36,082 bases of DNA, taken from positions 1-36,082 of the IMG/VR virus record IMGVR_UViG_3300003873_000031. The stretch is one strand, 5' to 3'. The translations under genes and the position numbers were made by a program. The notes beneath the pieces are model-generated. The model was not told the origin of the DNA, searched no databases, and was given only the letters and a program-made list of their open reading frames with translations. This document shows, piece after piece, positions 5,630 to 12,042 of the stretch (the first letter of the stretch is position 1; each line of letters starts with the position of its first letter). Source of the stretch: a virus.

Positions 5630-5767
5630 AAACTGTTAGGCTATTATGATGACGAAATAGAAGCGGCAAAAAGTTATGATAACTACTGTAAAAGTATCAA
5701 TTTTAAAGAAAAACTACTGAATGAAGATATTTATAAGGAATTAAAGAATGAACACATTAACGACTAA
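5630..5767 (+). pseudogene. AP2-domain homing endonuclease remnant
   Basis: An open frame without a start codon (the codon before it is TGA) encodes KLLGYYDDEIEAAKSYDNYC. The pattern G-(F/Y)-D-(D/T)-E-x-E-A-A-x-(A/S)-Y-D is characteristic of AP2 DNA-binding domains in phage HNH homing endonucleases. The rest of the endonuclease is missing, and the fragment runs into the start of the PD-(D/E)XK nuclease gene. I read it as the 3' stump of a former HEG next to a gene that now holds a different HEG. Confidence 0.4.
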
Positions 5768-6224
5768 AGACTACTTAACATACTATGATGGGAAAAATGA
5801 ACTACCAGAAAATGCTTTTCGTATTTCAGCTAGTTCGTTTAATACCTTTATATCACGTCCTTGGCAATACTACAAAGAGAAAGTACTAAATATAGGAGGA
5901 TTTGATGGAAACACGGCTAGTGTGATCGGAGACATAGTCCACGCAGTAGCCGCTATGAAGGCTCAAGGTAAAGAACCCGACATCAACGAAATCAATCAGT
6001 ACATAGAGAACCAATCAGATAACGTAGATGTAGACAAATACGTAGTAGCTGAGGCATGGAAACCTATGGCGATGGAACTAGTAAATTCATATATCATTCC
6101 AACACTTAATCAGTACACGTCAGTAGAAGAGTTTGTAACATATGATTTAGGTGACGGTATCTTTGCTGGCGGTTCAATAGATGCTATATCAGGAGAAAAG
6201 TTTAAATATTATAAGTATACTTAA
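5748..6224 (+). CDS. PD-(D/E)XK nuclease (RecB/Cas4-like), N-terminal fragment
   Basis: This 158-residue protein is the first half of a RecB/Cas4-type exonuclease. Residues 26-40 (ISASSFNTFISRPWQYYKEK) are the usual N-terminal helix. GDIVHAVAA (H65) is the RecB-family His motif, and GGSIDAISG (D145) is the first metal-binding Asp of the PD-(D/E)XK core. The frame then diverges (KFKYYKYT) and stops. The second Asp and Lys, and the QxxxY motif, lie in a separate gene at 7569. A GIY-YIG homing endonuclease gene occupies the gap. The start is supported by AAGGAA 7 bases upstream. The protein would be inactive alone. An active nuclease would need both fragments, acting with the Sak4-like ATPase and SSB downstream in recombination. 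Confidence 0.8.
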   Translation: MNTLTTKDYLTYYDGKNELPENAFRISASSFNTFISRPWQYYKEKVLNIGGFDGNTASVIGDIVHAVAAMKAQGKEPDINEINQYIENQSDNVDVDKYVVAEAWKPMAMELVNSYIIPTLNQYTSVEEFVTYDLGDGIFAGGSIDAISGEKFKYYKYT

Positions 6225-6328
6225 AGAATTGGTATTGTATAATACTTTTATAAGACCTTGTAAAGGCACAACTTCAAGATGCTGAAATTACGCATCTGCC
6301 TTGTATTTTCAGTACAGGAATACCTCTA
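6225..6328 (+). promoter_or_regulatory. leader of the GIY-YIG gene: TATAATAC box and long hairpin
   Basis: The gap holds TATAATAC (6238-6245), a possible -10 element. After it comes a two-part hairpin: AAGGC (6263-6267) pairs with GCCTT (6298-6302), and AGATGC (6277-6282) pairs with GCATCT (6292-6297), with a 9-base bulge and 9-base loop. Hairpins ahead of phage homing endonucleases often limit their translation. It could instead be a remnant of a group I intron, but I could not find the intron core. Confidence 0.35.
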
Positions 6329-7582
6329 ATGTTAACTTATACCGTGTACAAACATACAAATACCGTAACAGGAAAATCCTATGTAGGTGTTACAAAATAC
6401 TCTATGGAGTATAGATGGAAACAGCATTTACAAACAGTAAGACTAAAAACAAAGGACTTTAAAGCTTTTCATAATGCTATAGCTAAATACGGGGAATACT
6501 TATGGGAACATACCATAATAGTAGATAAAGTACCAAAAATGTTTATACAAGCTTTTGAAAAATACTGGATAGACTACTATGATAGTTTTTGTAATGGATA
6601 TAATTCAACTTTAGGTGGAGATTACTTTGATGGGTATAGTCCGCCTAAAGGAGAAAATCACCATTCAGCAGATTTAACTATATATATGTTCTTGCATAAA
6701 GATACTAAAAAGGTGTTTACAGGTACTCATATATCTTTTGCTAAAAAGTATAACATTAAAAATTCTACTGTAAATAAAATGTTAACAAAAACAAATGCAC
6801 AAGCTAAAGGATGGATACTTACTTCAAAAAGTACATTAGCATATGATATATTGTTTAAATGTGATGAAGTGGGTAAACAAAAAAGAGCATCAACTAACAG
6901 TTATAAACCATATCCACATAGTTCGTTAATATCCTTTTTAAACACTGAAATACATAAGTTATACGGAAAAATACCTATAGAAAAGTATAAAATGCTTATA
7001 AGATATAAATTTGTGTTTCCTTTTATTAACTATGAAAAAGTATATAAGTATAATGTAAATAGCAGTTTACGTTTAGATAAAAAAGCAGTAATTAGGTTAT
7101 TATATGAAAAAGCAAAACTATCTATTACACCTAAAGAAGATTTAATACTACCTAGAATGCAAGTATATCCTTCTTTAGGTGTAATAGGAACTTTTATTTT
7201 AAACGTATTAGATAAGTATGAGGAAGAAACATATAAGTCTCATATGATAAAAGCTACACCTTTAGAAACATTAATGTATAAAGAAGCTTGTAGTAGACGT
7301 TATAAAGGTAAAAATAACCCTATGTACGGAAAACCTAGGCCACAATACGTAAAAGATGCCGTTAGTAAACGAAGACGCAATGAGGCTGATAAAACTAAAC
7401 GCACTTGGATGCATGTACCGTCAAACAAAATTGAAAAGAACGTAACTTGTCTAGAACTTAGAGATAAATACCCAGAACTGCTTATAAGCAAATTAAATGC
7501 AGTAGCTAAAAAGCTAAAAAATAAAAAGGGTTACCTTATAGGCAAAACCCACAAAGGATGGAAATTATATGAAGAAAGTTAA
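6329..7582 (+). CDS. GIY-YIG homing endonuclease with NUMOD3-type DNA-binding region
   Basis: A 417-residue protein with an N-terminal GIY-YIG nuclease domain (about residues 1-95): YTVYKHTNTVTGKSYVGVTK holds the two Tyr-centred strands, followed by R29 in EYRWKQH and a Glu in AFEKYWIDYY. The C-terminal part contains GKNNPMYGKPRP (about 330-342), the signature of a NUMOD3 DNA-binding motif, and a helical end. It splits the PD-(D/E)XK nuclease gene between its metal-binding motifs. Its last 14 bases overlap the downstream nuclease fragment and include that gene's AAAGGA ribosome site. AGGAAT precedes its own ATG. It is unlike the other two rightward HEGs, so it arrived independently. Confidence 0.85.
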   Translation: MLTYTVYKHTNTVTGKSYVGVTKYSMEYRWKQHLQTVRLKTKDFKAFHNAIAKYGEYLWEHTIIVDKVPKMFIQAFEKYWIDYYDSFCNGYNSTLGGDYFDGYSPPKGENHHSADLTIYMFLHKDTKKVFTGTHISFAKKYNIKNSTVNKMLTKTNAQAKGWILTSKSTLAYDILFKCDEVGKQKRASTNSYKPYPHSSLISFLNTEIHKLYGKIPIEKYKMLIRYKFVFPFINYEKVYKYNVNSSLRLDKKAVIRLLYEKAKLSITPKEDLILPRMQVYPSLGVIGTFILNVLDKYEEETYKSHMIKATPLETLMYKEACSRRYKGKNNPMYGKPRPQYVKDAVSKRRRNEADKTKRTWMHVPSNKIEKNVTCLELRDKYPELLISKLNAVAKKLKNKKGYLIGKTHKGWKLYEES

Positions 7583-8027
7583 AATAACAAAAGAAGAATA
7601 TGAGAAATTGTTAAAAGAAGGAAAAGTAAAAGTAATGAGAGAGAGTAACTCATCCTCGATCCTAGTGGATTACAAGAGTTATAACTCGGCTACTAAACCA
7701 ACCAGTATTCCACCGTACTACAAACAGCAACTCCTAGTATATGCTTGGGTACTCAAGCAGCTTGGCAGGAGCATGGAGCGTATCCGCTTAGTCTACGTAA
7801 ACCGCCCAATAGACACTCGTCGTACCTCAGAGAAGACCGGCAAACCTATAGGTAAATACACACCACCAGAAGTAACCGTCCTAACTGAACTAATCACTCC
7901 AAAAGACATTAAGTGGATTGGGGATATGCTCACACTGGCTAAAGACAAACTCCTAGCTACCGAACAGCACCCAGAACTACGCAACTTAATCTGGCATTTT
8001 CCAGAATCTTACATAGAGGAACAGTAA
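7569..8027 (+). CDS. PD-(D/E)XK nuclease (RecB/Cas4-like), C-terminal fragment
   Basis: A 152-residue protein that completes the nuclease core begun at 5748. ILVDYKSYN (residues 31-39) supplies the D-x-K part of PD-(D/E)XK (D34, K36), and YYKQQLLVYAWVL (50-62) is the Q-x3-Y motif of RecB/Cas4 nucleases. The first 25 or so residues (KITKEEYEKLLKEGKVKV) do not look like nuclease sequence and were probably gained with the endonuclease insertion. The ATG lies inside the HEG 3' end, with AAAGGA 9 to 14 bases upstream. From about 7650 the base composition becomes more GC-rich than the HEG, marking the old exon boundary. The stop overlaps the next start by one base. Confidence 0.78.
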   Translation: MKKVKITKEEYEKLLKEGKVKVMRESNSSSILVDYKSYNSATKPTSIPPYYKQQLLVYAWVLKQLGRSMERIRLVYVNRPIDTRRTSEKTGKPIGKYTPPEVTVLTELITPKDIKWIGDMLTLAKDKLLATEQHPELRNLIWHFPESYIEEQ

Positions 8028-8224
8028 TGGAAGAGATAGTAGAATCGATACATAATGGACAACGTAGACAAGCACTAAAACAGATAGCAGCTAGTGATTA
8101 CATATTTGAAGATTGTTTAAAGTACATCGCAGAGGCTATTAGCTGTGAAGAAGCTATGGTTATGCTACATGTAGCTATTAACCAAAACTATATCTCTTTT
8201 AATTCAACAAATCTGAAGTATTAA
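8027..8224 (+). CDS. hypothetical protein, 65 aa
   Basis: A small helical protein beginning EEIVESIHNGQRRQALKQI. The NGQRRQAL-type N terminus resembles small conserved proteins seen beside phage replication genes, though I cannot name a family. The ATG overlaps the nuclease stop (TAATGG), so it is coupled to the nuclease fragment. Downstream lies the long gene-free, hairpin-rich stretch. Confidence 0.65.
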   Translation: MEEIVESIHNGQRRQALKQIAASDYIFEDCLKYIAEAISCEEAMVMLHVAINQNYISFNSTNLKY

Positions 8225-8755
8225 ACAAACCGGGTCAAATAAATGTCCCTCACGCTGACTGGTAATAAGTGGTTTGCCTTAAATTATAGCAGATTGTAAA
8301 ATAATGTGTCCAATACTCATACGGTTAGAGAAAACTTGGCAACTGGAGGAATCAGTTGTAAAAACCTTACCCAGTGTCAGTGCGCTGCTGCTGGAACCAT
8401 TGAGGAAAGGGTAATCCTCACAACCCCATGACTACATGCCATAGTTTATATGAAGGTGGCGGTACCCAGCCCGAAGGCATACATATCTGAGTTGATTACT
8501 TAGCACTTACTACGAGGTGGATTCGTAGAGTCTCTGGTTAAGTCACCCATGACAAAAATGAAAAGACTAGAAAGAACTAATCATTCTTTCGACACACCCT
8601 ACACGGTTAGATACAATAGATTAACTAATCTTTAAATCTGAATAGTTATCGATAAGTAAACTATGTGTAGTATTCATACACATACTTAGGCAGTTAGGAT
8701 CTCCTATTATGATCGCTCATACCTAACTGCCTAATTGTACGTATAAAGGCTGCCA
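8225..8755 (+). ncRNA. candidate large structured non-coding RNA (about 530 bases)
   Basis: No gene fits on either strand, and composition is more GC-balanced than the coding neighbours. Perfect hairpins with mostly 7-base loops follow one another: CAACTG/CAGTTG (8340-8358, loop GAGGAAT), TGAGGA/TCCTCA (8401-8420), GCC-CGAA-GGC (8469-8478) inside ATATG/CATAT (8448-8486), CTACGA/TCGTAG (8510-8528, loop GGTGGAT), GTCA-CCCA-TGAC (8542-8553), GAAAGAA/TTCTTTC (8570-8590), TATGTGTA/TACACATA (8662-8684), and a 13-base-pair stem at 8686-8734. ACGGTTAGA occurs twice (8321 and 8603). Loop GGTGGAT could kiss the nearby CACCC. Size and phage context recall the ornate phage RNAs GOLLD and ROOL, but I cannot match either. 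I found no tRNA, tmRNA or group I intron core. Strand is assumed from the neighbours. Confidence 0.5.
8686..8734. repeat. 13-bp perfect inverted repeat with 23-base spacer
   Basis: TTAGGCAGTTAGG (8686-8698) is the exact reverse complement of CCTAACTGCCTAA (8722-8734). It is the longest perfect stem in the gene-free region and lies just before the 8756 gene. There is no T-run after it, so it is not a typical intrinsic terminator. It may be the closing 3' stem of the structured RNA, or a protein-binding site. Confidence 0.7.
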
Positions 8756-8962
8756 ATGATTAAATGGCTAAAACACCTCTGGAACTCAGTATGGCAATAC
8801 CTTATTAAGAAAGACAGAGAACAAGTAATGAAACAAATGATTAGAGACCAGACAAAATCTGAACCCTCTAAACACAGGTGTCCTAGAACAGGACTAACAA
8901 TAGTTGATAAACTACCAGTGAGACGACTTAAAATAAAAAAGAAAAGGAAAGCTAATGAGTAA
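8756..8962 (+). CDS. small basic protein, 68 aa
   Basis: A small protein with an aromatic amphipathic N terminus (IKWLKHLWNSVWQYLIKK) and a very basic C terminus (RRLKIKKKRKANE). It could bind nucleic acid or associate with membrane. AAAGG lies 6 bases before the ATG. The end overlaps the Sak4-like gene by 8 bases, so it is coupled to it. No family recognised. Confidence 0.6.
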   Translation: MIKWLKHLWNSVWQYLIKKDREQVMKQMIRDQTKSEPSKHRCPRTGLTIVDKLPVRRLKIKKKRKANE

Positions 8963-9737
8963 AAAAGGAATTAAATTACTTATAAATGGTATAGCCGGAG
9001 CAGGTAAAACTGAGCTACTAAGACCATTTGGAAAAGAAACATTTGTAATTTCTAGAGATGCTAAAAACTTCTCACTACCAATTCCACATATGCTAGTAGA
9101 TACTTACTACGATATGGATACTTTCATCAATGGCGCAATAGAAAAAGATGAAGATGGCAATGATGTAAATATCTCAGGTGTCTTAGATAAGTTAGATGCA
9201 TACATAGAAAAATTTGGTAAACCACCAGAGAACGTAGTTATTGATTCAGTATCCCAAATATTCATGGATGTAATCGATGTAGCTTCACAAAAACCTAACG
9301 TATACGGAAGCCAAGGTGCAGAAGTAACTAAAGAAATGGCTAAACTAACTCAGTTTATTCATGAGGGTTTAGAACTACAAGGCATAAATGTTATACTAAT
9401 CAATCATGTAATCAAAGAAAAAGAGGATGGTAAGTTTACCAATTCTTATATTTCATTCGGTTCAGGTAAGTTTTTAGATAAAGGTGGTTTTTACAGTACA
9501 ACAAATGAGTCAATACTGTTAGCCTTAGAAAGCTCTAATCGAGTTATACATACACGCGGTACAGATAAACAAGCCCGTACAATGCTTACAGGCATACCTG
9601 ATAAGTACTATGTAGAAAACTTTGTACATCCAGAAAAGTCTAAAAAACTTAAAGAGGGTGAAGAGTATTTTAATCTTAAAAAGCATTTAGCTACATTAAC
9701 TGCAACACAAGTAGATGCTGAAAAATGGTCTATTTAA
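8955..9737 (+). CDS. Sak4-like RecA-fold ATPase (single-strand annealing/recombination)
   Basis: A 260-residue P-loop ATPase. Walker A is GIAGAGKT (residues 12-19) and Walker B is NVVIDSVSQ (about 94-102), followed by a sensor-like VILINHVIKE strand (about 150). Size and motif order match the phage Sak4 family, a minimal RecA-like core that works with a phage SSB in single-strand annealing and recombination-dependent replication. The SSB-like gene comes next and the RecB-like nuclease fragments lie upstream, which supports a recombination role. It overlaps the preceding small gene by 8 bases. A general AAA-type ATPase is the alternative label. Confidence 0.75.
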   Translation: MSKKGIKLLINGIAGAGKTELLRPFGKETFVISRDAKNFSLPIPHMLVDTYYDMDTFINGAIEKDEDGNDVNISGVLDKLDAYIEKFGKPPENVVIDSVSQIFMDVIDVASQKPNVYGSQGAEVTKEMAKLTQFIHEGLELQGINVILINHVIKEKEDGKFTNSYISFGSGKFLDKGGFYSTTNESILLALESSNRVIHTRGTDKQARTMLTGIPDKYYVENFVHPEKSKKLKEGEEYFNLKKHLATLTATQVDAEKWSI

Positions 9738-9821: not shown

Positions 9822-10517
9822 ATGAGTTTTTTTAAAACAAAAAAAGATGCGGAAAGCGTTAAAGAATCAACAGGCGGTAACTCAGCTTATTTGAATAAAC
9901 CGGGAATTTTTGACGTAAACGTAATTGCAGCATTTGCAAGTGAAGGTAAGGGGGGTTCAGTATCCGTAGATTTCTTCATCGAGAAAGATGAACAACCACA
10001 ACCACTTTATGGAAATTTAAGAATTACAAATAATTCAGGGGATGAAAATAAAATCGGTGCAGCAACGTTCAACAAACTTCTAGTAATCCTAGATGAAGAT
10101 GAAGCAGCAGATCCAGAGGAAGCAACACTACCTATGGGTAAAGATGGTGCAGAGAAAGACGCAGCAGTAATCCCTAACTTAACTGACTTTGACATCAAAG
10201 TATGGGTAGCTATCGAATACTCAGTGTACAACGGTTCAATAGGTGAGAAGAAAATTATCCGTAATTTCTACCGTGCAGCAGATGGTGCATCAGCAGAAGA
10301 AATCGTTAACGAAGTAGAACCAGGCGCACAGTACACTAAAGACTTAGAGTACCTAGAGAACTCTGAAAACAAAGGTGTAATCTACAAAGATGACCTCACT
10401 AAAGAGACTGTAGACCAGTGGATTAAAGATAAGCGCCCGAAACAGAGTATAGGAACTTCAGGAAGCAGTGCACAGCGTAAACCTTCTTTCGCAAAGAAAC
10501 GTTTTTCAGTTAAGTAA
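9822..10517 (+). CDS. probable single-stranded DNA-binding protein
   Basis: A 231-residue protein with a beta-rich middle (about residues 25-150, including VSVDFFIEKD and DIKVWVAIEYSV) and a flexible, charged C terminus rich in Ser, Lys and Arg (SGSSAQRKPSFAKKRFSVK). The shape and its place right after a Sak4-like ATPase fit phage OB-fold SSBs. In N4 the SSB (gp45) also lies between the polymerase region and the vRNAP gene, and it activates late transcription by host RNA polymerase. The C terminus here is basic rather than the acidic tail of bacterial SSB. Assignment rests on context and size more than on motifs. Confidence 0.6.
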   Translation: MSFFKTKKDAESVKESTGGNSAYLNKPGIFDVNVIAAFASEGKGGSVSVDFFIEKDEQPQPLYGNLRITNNSGDENKIGAATFNKLLVILDEDEAADPEEATLPMGKDGAEKDAAVIPNLTDFDIKVWVAIEYSVYNGSIGEKKIIRNFYRAADGASAEEIVNEVEPGAQYTKDLEYLENSENKGVIYKDDLTKETVDQWIKDKRPKQSIGTSGSSAQRKPSFAKKRFSVK

Positions 10518-10558: not shown

Positions 10559-11563
10559 ATGACACTCTCACCAGAAGTTACAAGTAAACGTATAATAAAG
10601 TTCTTTAAAACATTAGAAAAAAGATTCATTGAACTGCATGGAGGTAAGTACTCTTATGATAAGGCAGTATATATAAACAGTAGTACTAAGCTTACTATAA
10701 TCTGTCCTATTCATGGAGATTTTAAAATGTCTACTAATAAACACTTAGCAGGGCAAAATTGTACAAAGTGTTCTAATAGAATCGGAGATACTAAAGAATT
10801 TGTTAGACGTGCTAATTTAAGGCATAGTAACTACTATATGTACGAAAAAGCAGAGTATAAAAGTTCTAAAGAGCTAGTGACTATTACATGTCCAGTACAC
10901 GGAGATTTTGAGCATAAGGCCTATAACCATTTATACGGAAATGGGTGCAAAAAATGTGTACAAGAAAAACTAATAGACCCAATAGGCTCTAGAAGAAAGT
11001 ATGTACCAGATCAACATAATAGGGTAAATAGTACTGAACGCTTTATAAAAAAAGCAAAAGAGGTACATGGAGATACATATAGTTATAGTAAGTCAGTGTT
11101 TACTGATTCAGATACTAAGGTAATTATTACTTGTCATACTCATGGAGATTTTGAACAGTTACCAAGAAACCATTTTCATCTAGAGCAAGGATGTCCTATC
11201 TGTAAAAAAGCAGGTTATGACAATACTAAAAAACATGGATGGTTGTATATCTATAAAATATCATCTAGCGTATTAGGTTATGGTATAACTACACAACCTT
11301 ATGTACGTCATACAACACATACTAAAATGTTTAAAGAATATAAAATAAAAGATGTAAAATTGTTACACTTATATAAGTCTGACGCTAAAACAGTAGAACA
11401 AATAGAAAAAATACTTAAGCAACAATTTAGTAAAAAAGATGTAAACTTACCAGGTTTTATTACTGAAAACACTTGTATATCCAACTTAGGTACTATGTTG
11501 AAAATAATAGAAAGAAAATGTACTAAAGCCAATTTCTTTAAAAGTAAGTTAAATAAAGCATAG
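10559..11563 (+). CDS. homing endonuclease: zinc-ribbon modules plus degenerate GIY-YIG domain
   Basis: A 334-residue paralogue of the gene at 1674, with three tandem zinc-ribbon modules: TIICPIHGDF then CTKC; VTITCPVHGDF then GCKKC; VIITCHTHGDF then GCPIC. They span about residues 22-75, 85-140 and 160-215. The C-terminal domain reads WLYIYKIS, YGITTQPYVRH and EQIEKILKQQF. It follows the GIY-YIG pattern of strands, Arg and Glu but is more degenerate than its relative. The gene lies between the SSB and the 11616 gene, bracketed by a 10-base direct repeat, and does not obviously interrupt a coding sequence. TATAAT (10537-10542) and AAAGGA precede it. Confidence 0.75.
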   Translation: MTLSPEVTSKRIIKFFKTLEKRFIELHGGKYSYDKAVYINSSTKLTIICPIHGDFKMSTNKHLAGQNCTKCSNRIGDTKEFVRRANLRHSNYYMYEKAEYKSSKELVTITCPVHGDFEHKAYNHLYGNGCKKCVQEKLIDPIGSRRKYVPDQHNRVNSTERFIKKAKEVHGDTYSYSKSVFTDSDTKVIITCHTHGDFEQLPRNHFHLEQGCPICKKAGYDNTKKHGWLYIYKISSSVLGYGITTQPYVRHTTHTKMFKEYKIKDVKLLHLYKSDAKTVEQIEKILKQQFSKKDVNLPGFITENTCISNLGTMLKIIERKCTKANFFKSKLNKA

Positions 11564-11876: not shown

Positions 11877-11906
11877 TGAGCAAATACAACGGTACTACGC
11901 ACACTT

Positions 11907-12011
11907 GTTATCTAAGTTAAAAAGAAAGAGGTGCAATTCCTCGGGACTCAGAGATTACTTCAATGAGGCCAGGTTGGCATGCCACAGCAATAAAGCCATT
12001 ACTTAGATAAC
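11907..12011 (+). promoter_or_regulatory. structured leader resembling a cobalamin riboswitch, upstream of RNR genes
   Basis: An 11-base-pair perfect stem (GTTATCTAAGT 11907-11917 with ACTTAGATAAC 12001-12011) closes a roughly 105-base domain. Inside are a T-loop-type hairpin, GAGG-TGCAATT-CCTC (11928-11942); AGATTACTT (11952-11960); a short GGCC/TGGC-type hairpin; and ATGCCACAG (11979-11987). Hairpin with T-loop, then AGATTACTT, then a small hairpin, then ATGCCAC is the order of elements I recall in the short cobalamin riboswitch class represented by env8. A B12 sensor ahead of a class I, B12-independent RNR is biologically sensible. Against it, a canonical GGGAA junction and an obvious expression-platform hairpin are missing. 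ATTACTT occurs twice (11954, 11998), and both copies could pair with AAGT, allowing a switch. It could also be a riboswitch of another class. Confidence 0.45.
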
Positions 12012-12042
12012 TTAACTAAAACAAACAAACAAAGGAAACTAA

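Follow-up and report, generated by a model that had tools for sequence, protein, structure and literature searches.

To our knowledge, lytic podophages have yielded few structured non-coding RNAs so far, and apart from tRNAs we know of none described in N4-like phages. Many GOLLD RNAs are longer than 800 bases and have a universally conserved 3' region. GOLLD contains pseudoknots and kissing loops and its linker sometimes holds tRNAs; the phage RNA ROOL, often located near tRNAs, likewise has several pseudoknots together with kissing loops (PMC12286853). The locus described here lies in a 36,082-base IMG/VR viral contig, the whole of which we analysed and refer to as the window. It is like GOLLD in being phage-encoded, in its predicted pseudoknots and kissing loops and, in the relative L034, in having a tRNA within the RNA. 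It differs from GOLLD in that it has no match in Rfam, its whole gap is 531 bases and its shared part ~170 bases as compared with >800 bases, its modules A and B are separable, and it sits in an early replication-gene operon. With ROOL it shares pseudoknots and kissing-type contacts, which in our case are predicted from sequence, but it has neither an Rfam match nor a tRNA in the window and is smaller and modular. The locus thus appears to resemble GOLLD and ROOL somewhat while being a member of neither, and we propose that it represents a new RNA family, so far seen in five contigs.

In phage T4, gp32 represses translation by way of a pseudoknot within the gene 32 mRNA, and the early mRNA of T7 contains RNase III processing hairpins that are long, imperfect and intergenic. 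The T4/RB69 gene 32 mRNA pseudoknot is the topic of PMC535899 and PMC3014915. Our locus is like the gene 32 operator in that an H-type pseudoknot lies upstream of phage recombination and SSB genes; it is unlike it in being outside the SSB leader itself and in having a long conserved loop and a second domain, B. By analogy, the gene 32 pseudoknot may be the nearest functional parallel for a control role. Hairpin D of the locus is like the T7 hairpins in being long, imperfect, between genes and just 5' of a ribosome-binding site, but D has a conserved CUCCUA loop, and A and B have no T7 counterpart.

A gene-free gap in an early operon

Alteromonas phages PT11-V19, R22Y and AD45 have the nearest counterparts to the DNA polymerase and SSB of the window, which also encodes a 2224-aa relative of a PT11-V19 protein annotated as RNA polymerase; from these affinities we conclude that the window belongs to an N4-like phage. 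In a plus-strand operon of this phage, a gap of 531 bases (8225-8755) separates an ORF at 8027-8224, which comes after the second half of a PD-(D/E)XK exonuclease, from a small conserved ORF of 68 aa at 8756-8962 directly 3' of the gap. A Sak4-like ATPase (8955-9737) and SSB (9822-10517) follow, also on the plus strand, as are all features of the gap named below. More than 500 bases without a gene had been called exceptional in the earlier note; the gap is indeed the longest between listed ORFs in the window, three times longer than the runner-up of 178 bases, and several of the smaller gaps contain ORFs of <60 aa. We also considered that the 531-base gap might be coding. Its own ORFs are 20-41 aa long and are not retained in relatives. 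A frame beginning MTKM shrinks from 28 aa in the window to 11 aa in L016 and 8 aa in L034, and changes in the open frame of module A are mostly replacements, and coding was therefore rejected.

Relatives were sought by means of the ATPase, SSB and exonuclease as well as DNA patterns, and a homologous gap turned up in four contigs: L016 (IMGVR_3300003873_000055), L034/L030 (3300006076_000002, 92.9 kb), L024 (3300023500_000044) and L002 (3300009408_000062). Modules A and D occur in all five phages, module B in three (the window, L016 and L034) and module C in three (the window, L002 and L024), while the first 200 bases of the gap are found in the window only. L016 packs A, B and D into ~245 bases. 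The shared A and B amount to ~170 bases, to which the separate hairpin D is added. In L034/L030 only, a tRNA-Lys(TTT) (L034 5993-6066) sits between modules A and B; ARAGORN found no tRNA or tmRNA in the window, and the remaining relatives likewise have no tRNA. With L034, a tRNA inside a phage RNA is seen in a second context in addition to GOLLD. Since A occurs without B in two of the five phages and a tRNA can be inserted between them, A and B behave as separate RNA domains.

In more distant relatives the exonuclease adjoins the ATPase without a gap, and a comparable RNA gap is likewise missing at the corresponding site of PT11-V19 and AD45-P1, two annotated Alteromonas phages, from which we take the RNA region to have been added in one clade. 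Among 50,697 phage and 72,556 plasmid records, none matched the region significantly at the DNA level, and neither the window nor the relatives' contigs hold a further copy of the locus. A loose core pattern run against genome contigs gave three matches that look like chance. A model of the RNA locus, R1, reached E 0.089 at L036, and against 274 genomes of L036's class it found nothing at E≤0.01, which by itself proves nothing.

At the gathering score no Rfam family, including GOLLD, ROOL, introns and RNase P, matched anywhere in the window. On 8100-8900, only chance-level matches appeared up to E≤10, with none to GOLLD or ROOL, neither of which the earlier note could match to the region. The four relatives searched at E≤1 gave only tRNA and, away from the locus, a group I intron, again without GOLLD or ROOL. 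Group I and II intron, HEARO, RNase P and small ribozyme models were unmatched at the locus; the earlier note had suggested a search with all but the last of these. In type III toxin-antitoxin systems, ToxI-like RNAs form tandem pseudoknot repeats that precede the gene for a ToxN-type nuclease. Such a tandem repeat family is absent from 8100-8900, and the flanking proteins are an exonuclease, the 68-aa protein and the Sak4-like ATPase as opposed to a ToxN-type nuclease.

These searches bear directly on the idea of a self-splicing intron or self-cleaving ribozyme of known class. Its appeal is that the relative L002 carries a group I intron at 8846-9050 and that module A matches small ribozymes in size, but with no family match to E=10 in the window or to E=1 at the relatives' locus, and with no exons to join because the locus lies between genes, we give this explanation scarcely any credence. 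The L002 match itself (39.4 bits, E 9.6e-7, below the Rfam gathering score) interrupts the ribonucleotide reductase small-subunit gene, off the RNA locus.

Candidate mobile elements are seen elsewhere in the window and its relatives. The PD-(D/E)XK exonuclease of the window is in two pieces, 5748-6224 and 7569-8027, with a GIY-YIG endonuclease ORF (6329-7582) between them; intron models did not match across this split exonuclease (5748-8027), and splicing or a split gene are both possible. A strong inverted repeat with arms of ~30 bases and a loop of 30 bases lies at 7109-7200, within the GIY-YIG ORF. Two similar zinc-finger ORFs, the first of which matches MUG113 and T5orf172, are located among the replication genes (1674-2684 and 10559-11563) and are probably free-standing homing endonucleases. 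In L034 5000-5990 (L030 3645-4600) an intact exonuclease is followed in turn by an endonuclease-like ORF, a second and decayed copy of the exonuclease C-terminus, and the RNA locus, an arrangement that looks like homing-endonuclease-driven exchange.

Predicted pseudoknots and a predicted loop-loop contact

Using 500 dinucleotide shuffles of the gap as a null, we counted perfect hairpins of at least 6 bp and found nine in the gap against 2.7 ± 1.6 in the shuffles, 2 of which reached nine. Hairpins with 7-base loops numbered four against 0.12 expected, and neither this number nor the 13-bp stem was reached in any of the 500 shuffles. The hairpin content described in the earlier note, with at least seven perfect hairpins and four 7-base loops, therefore stands. 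Folding energy is only mildly low for the whole region (z -1.7) and locally low only near 8565-8804; the energies of modules A and B are not unusual, and energy models leave pseudoknots out. The repeat ACGGTTAGA, which had also been singled out, does exist in exactly two copies (8321 and 8603), but by our own estimate one repeated 9-mer within 531 bases is about chance level and the repeat is unremarkable. As a part of a group I or II intron, suggested by its resemblance to the end of domain V, ACGGTTAGA was rejected, having neither a partner strand nor a model match.

Module A (8430-8480), present in all five phages, is predicted to fold as an H-type pseudoknot. Its stem 1 pairs GACTA 8430-8434 with TAGTT 8442-8446, and four of these pairs are changed on both sides among the phages, which have either GACTA:TAGTY or GCTAT:ATAGC. 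Stem 2 pairs ATGCC 8436-8440, in the loop of stem 1, with GGCAT 8476-8480, a partner ~30 bases downstream; it reads ATGCC:GGCAT or TAGTC:GACTA across the five phages, with 2-3 pairs double-changed, and shows no covariation inside the three-sequence set of the window, L016 and L034. The loop between the stems is 29 bases long and conserved (TATGAAGGYRRYGGTAMCC..AGYCCGWA). Stems 1 and 2 are the sole covarying helices in A, with a column-shuffle null of 0.1 per alignment of the five phages, and the covariation spans three lineages. Since the alignment of the five phages was made by hand, this score is somewhat favourable to pseudoknot A.

Module B (8487-8590), shared by three phages, is predicted to combine hairpins with a pseudoknot, the whole domain being closed by a loop-loop contact. 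Hairpin B1 (8487-8503; CTGAGT/ACTTAG, loop TGATT 8493-8497) is 100% paired in the three phages and its stem varies by G-U changes only. An H-type pseudoknot follows at 8504-8528, in which CACTT 8504-8508 pairs with AGGTG 8515-8519 and is crossed by CTACG 8510-8514 pairing with CGTAG 8524-8528. In the first of these helices one A-U pair is G-C in L016, a double change found next to two wobble changes, and the crossing stem is invariant, without covariation in the three-sequence set. Hairpin B3 (8541-8568) encloses the invariant ACCCATGACAAAAATGAA, with an inner CAT/ATG and a 7-base loop, in a stem that is AGTC/GACT, AGGT/ACCT or AGCT/GGCT in the three phages, two of its pairs being double-changed. 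Hairpin B4 (8570-8590; GAAAGAA/TTCTTTC, loop CTAATCA) has three double-changed pairs, as seen in GAAAG/CTTTC, GAGGG/CCCTC and GAGTA/TACTC. The loops of B1 and B4 are complementary to each other (8493-8583): TGATT 8493-8497 faces AATCA 8579-8583 in the window and L034, and these become TAGTT and AACTA in L016. From this covariation we predict a kissing contact, which may form within or between molecules.

The earlier note had proposed tertiary contacts and had named GGTGGAT with CACCC. Tertiary contacts in general are supported by the covarying pseudoknots and loop-loop contact. The specific pair, complementary in the window, is not: L016 has GGCGGTT and TACCC, the relatives favour CACTT:AGGTG as part of the pseudoknot instead, and GGTGGAT:CACCC was rejected as a conserved contact.

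Statistics for A and B together come from a MAFFT alignment (A4) of the window, L016 and L034 with the L034 tRNA cut out, and comparative support as a whole rests on five sequences from approximately three lineages. The proposed A-B structure has 34 pairs, and 98% of its cells are paired in the three phages, a figure that drops to 31-46% when the structure is slid by 1-3 columns. Eight of the 34 pairs are double-changed compared with 3.0 in shuffles, none of which reached eight in 500 trials; the compensatory changes in relatives that the earlier note had asked for are thus found in the pseudoknots and the loop-loop contact. Among 15,225 column pairs scanned, B4 and the B1:B4 loops are the sole 5-bp matches with at least two double changes. 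B3 is a third helix with at least two, at 4 bp, and column shuffles give ~0.08 such helices against these three. RNAalifold, without being supplied the structure, recovers B1, CACYU:AGGUG, B3 and B4.

Identity between the phages is 81-92% in A and 79-85% in B compared with 56-62% at 4-fold sites of SSB, from which we conclude that the region is under selection without coding for a protein. This level of conservation has already counted against the locus being a decaying tRNA and insertion hot spot made of functionless leftovers of tRNA genes and homing-endonuclease exchange. Such decay could be read from the intact tRNA-Lys, endonuclease-like ORF and duplicated exonuclease fragment that adjoin the L034 locus, from the gain and loss of modules and from the splitting of the window exonuclease by the GIY-YIG ORF, but A and B are conserved above synonymous sites and double changes preserve their stems, making this origin extremely improbable.

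Proposed helices contain 13 G-U cells versus 5 A-C cells. This excess and the flanking plus-strand genes lean toward the plus strand, the bias being weak. The same count bears on the locus acting as DNA through a single-stranded form, as an origin, a recombination site or an N4-type virion RNA polymerase hairpin promoter. N4-like phages do use hairpin promoters, and those of N4 have short loops. The window encodes a homologue of the PT11-V19 protein annotated as RNA polymerase and hairpins can form in DNA too, but G-U is tolerated above A-C (13:5), crossing pseudoknots and 7-base loops are unlike the short-looped N4 promoters, and the skew is unchanged at the locus; we regard a DNA element as very doubtful.

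Collectively, base pairs of A, B and D are kept by compensatory change, with A and B separable. Matching mutations in four relatives preserve hairpins, a pseudoknot and a loop-loop contact, so that a structured RNA from a family absent from databases is very probably encoded in the gap. As to the new large phage RNA suspected in the earlier note, its structure, covariation and lack of an Rfam match hold up, and a single 530-base RNA does not, as A and B make up ~170 bases and the region is modular. A GOLLD- or ROOL-like cage is unsupported given that modules come and go, that the first 200 bases are window-only and that neither family matches. A smaller version of the idea would be a miniature ornate RNA of the GOLLD/ROOL kind, homo-oligomeric through intermolecular B1:B4 kissing and with tRNA cargo in the linker of some members. 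Pseudoknots and kissing loops are present, a tRNA-Lys lies inside the L034 RNA, and GOLLD itself is held together by kissing loops and sometimes has tRNAs in its linker (PMC12286853). Even so, Rfam is unmatched for both families, in the window even at E≤10, the shared part is ~170 bases against >800 in many GOLLD RNAs, and A occurs without B in two phages, so that this version is improbable. The covarying pseudoknot, the second pseudoknot domain and the loop-loop contact of the structured RNA are concrete, testable base pairs, and A plus B is a defined 170-base construct for structure work.

Hairpin D and its possible control of the next gene

Module D is a long imperfect hairpin with arms at 8673-8698 and 8722-8747, present in all five phages. 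It has 20-odd imperfect pairs and a loop A(C/T)CTCCTA, which starts with ATCTCCTA (8699-8706) in the window and ACCTCCTA in the four relatives, and at its 3' foot GTATAAAG stands right before the start codon. The stem sequences are almost unrelated among the five phages, and the hairpin is kept with z -3.8 to -6.3 relative to mononucleotide shuffles. D is the top-scoring hairpin in the loci of three of the four relatives and the second-best in the window. Its foot, where GTATAAAGG is invariant in 5 of 5 phages as aligned, holds the probable ribosome-binding site AAAGG (8745-8749) of ORF 8756-8962, beside which D carries its conserved CUCCUA loop; in L016 AAAGG itself is paired. A SNORA23 match (E 0.058) was dismissed as merely hairpin D by chance, and a conserved contact of the D loop with A or B was not supported. 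No intrinsic terminator (a G+C-rich hairpin plus T run) was found on the plus strand at 7900-9000.

Module C (8597-8688), with the hairpin TATGTGTA/TACACATA at 8662-8684, is conserved in sequence among the three phages that have it and shows no covariation. Competing stems exist, such as 8662-8684 versus hairpin D. In the window-specific 5' stretch (8225-8420), a possible pseudoknot pairs TTACCC 8367-8372 with GGGTAA 8409-8414, crossed by TGAGGA 8401-8406 with TCCTCA 8415-8420; no relative of this stretch was found and it therefore offers no covariation.

We favour, as probable, a modular structured-RNA locus on the plus strand of an early operon in a small N4-like clade, with D gating or processing the next gene. 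The operon transcript would run through the gap, and module A would fold as an H-type pseudoknot with its conserved 29-base loop and module B as a compact domain in which hairpins and a second pseudoknot are held closed by the loop-loop contact. D would expose its CUCCUA loop, and its foot would lie where ribosomes bind for ORF 8756. In other phages, RNase III sites and translational operators act as such hairpins, and by analogy D probably sets the processing of, or ribosome access to, ORF 8756. A and B, for their part, would probably be left over from processing as stable RNA that resists nucleases, or else be protein-bound; we infer this split of roles between D and A/B.

The position of D at the ribosome-binding site also speaks for the whole region being a cis-acting control leader, in which a phage protein such as SSB binds the A/B pseudoknots and represses the genes below. 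The small ORF, the Sak4-like ATPase and SSB are indeed all downstream of the pseudoknots, and the gene 32 pseudoknot of T4/RB69 offers a precedent (PMC535899, PMC3014915). The start of SSB, however, is 1.3 kb below A with two genes intervening, B and C are absent from some phages, maturation of the L034 tRNA between A and B should cut the leader, and other clades with the same genes do not have the region. We therefore judge a control leader covering the whole region unlikely compared with the modular locus. More speculatively, the modular locus might stand for a new class of phage RNA whose interchangeable pseudoknot modules, namely A, B, C and the 5' part specific to the window, can have a tRNA placed between them, assemble by the loop-loop contact and act early and in trans as a stable RNA, for example a counter-defence or translation-control particle, which we consider quite unlikely.

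Further structured stretches were noted. L024 has an additional 80-base insert between C and D (5899-5983) that by eye forms a four-way junction, and in the D loop of L034 (6230-6260) TGCGGATTTGAACCTCG resembles the opposite-strand T-arm of a tRNA. A second gene-free structured stretch of the window, at 11905-12015 and apparently missing from L002, has an 11-bp closing stem GTTATCTAAGT...ACTTAGATAAC that encloses several hairpins.
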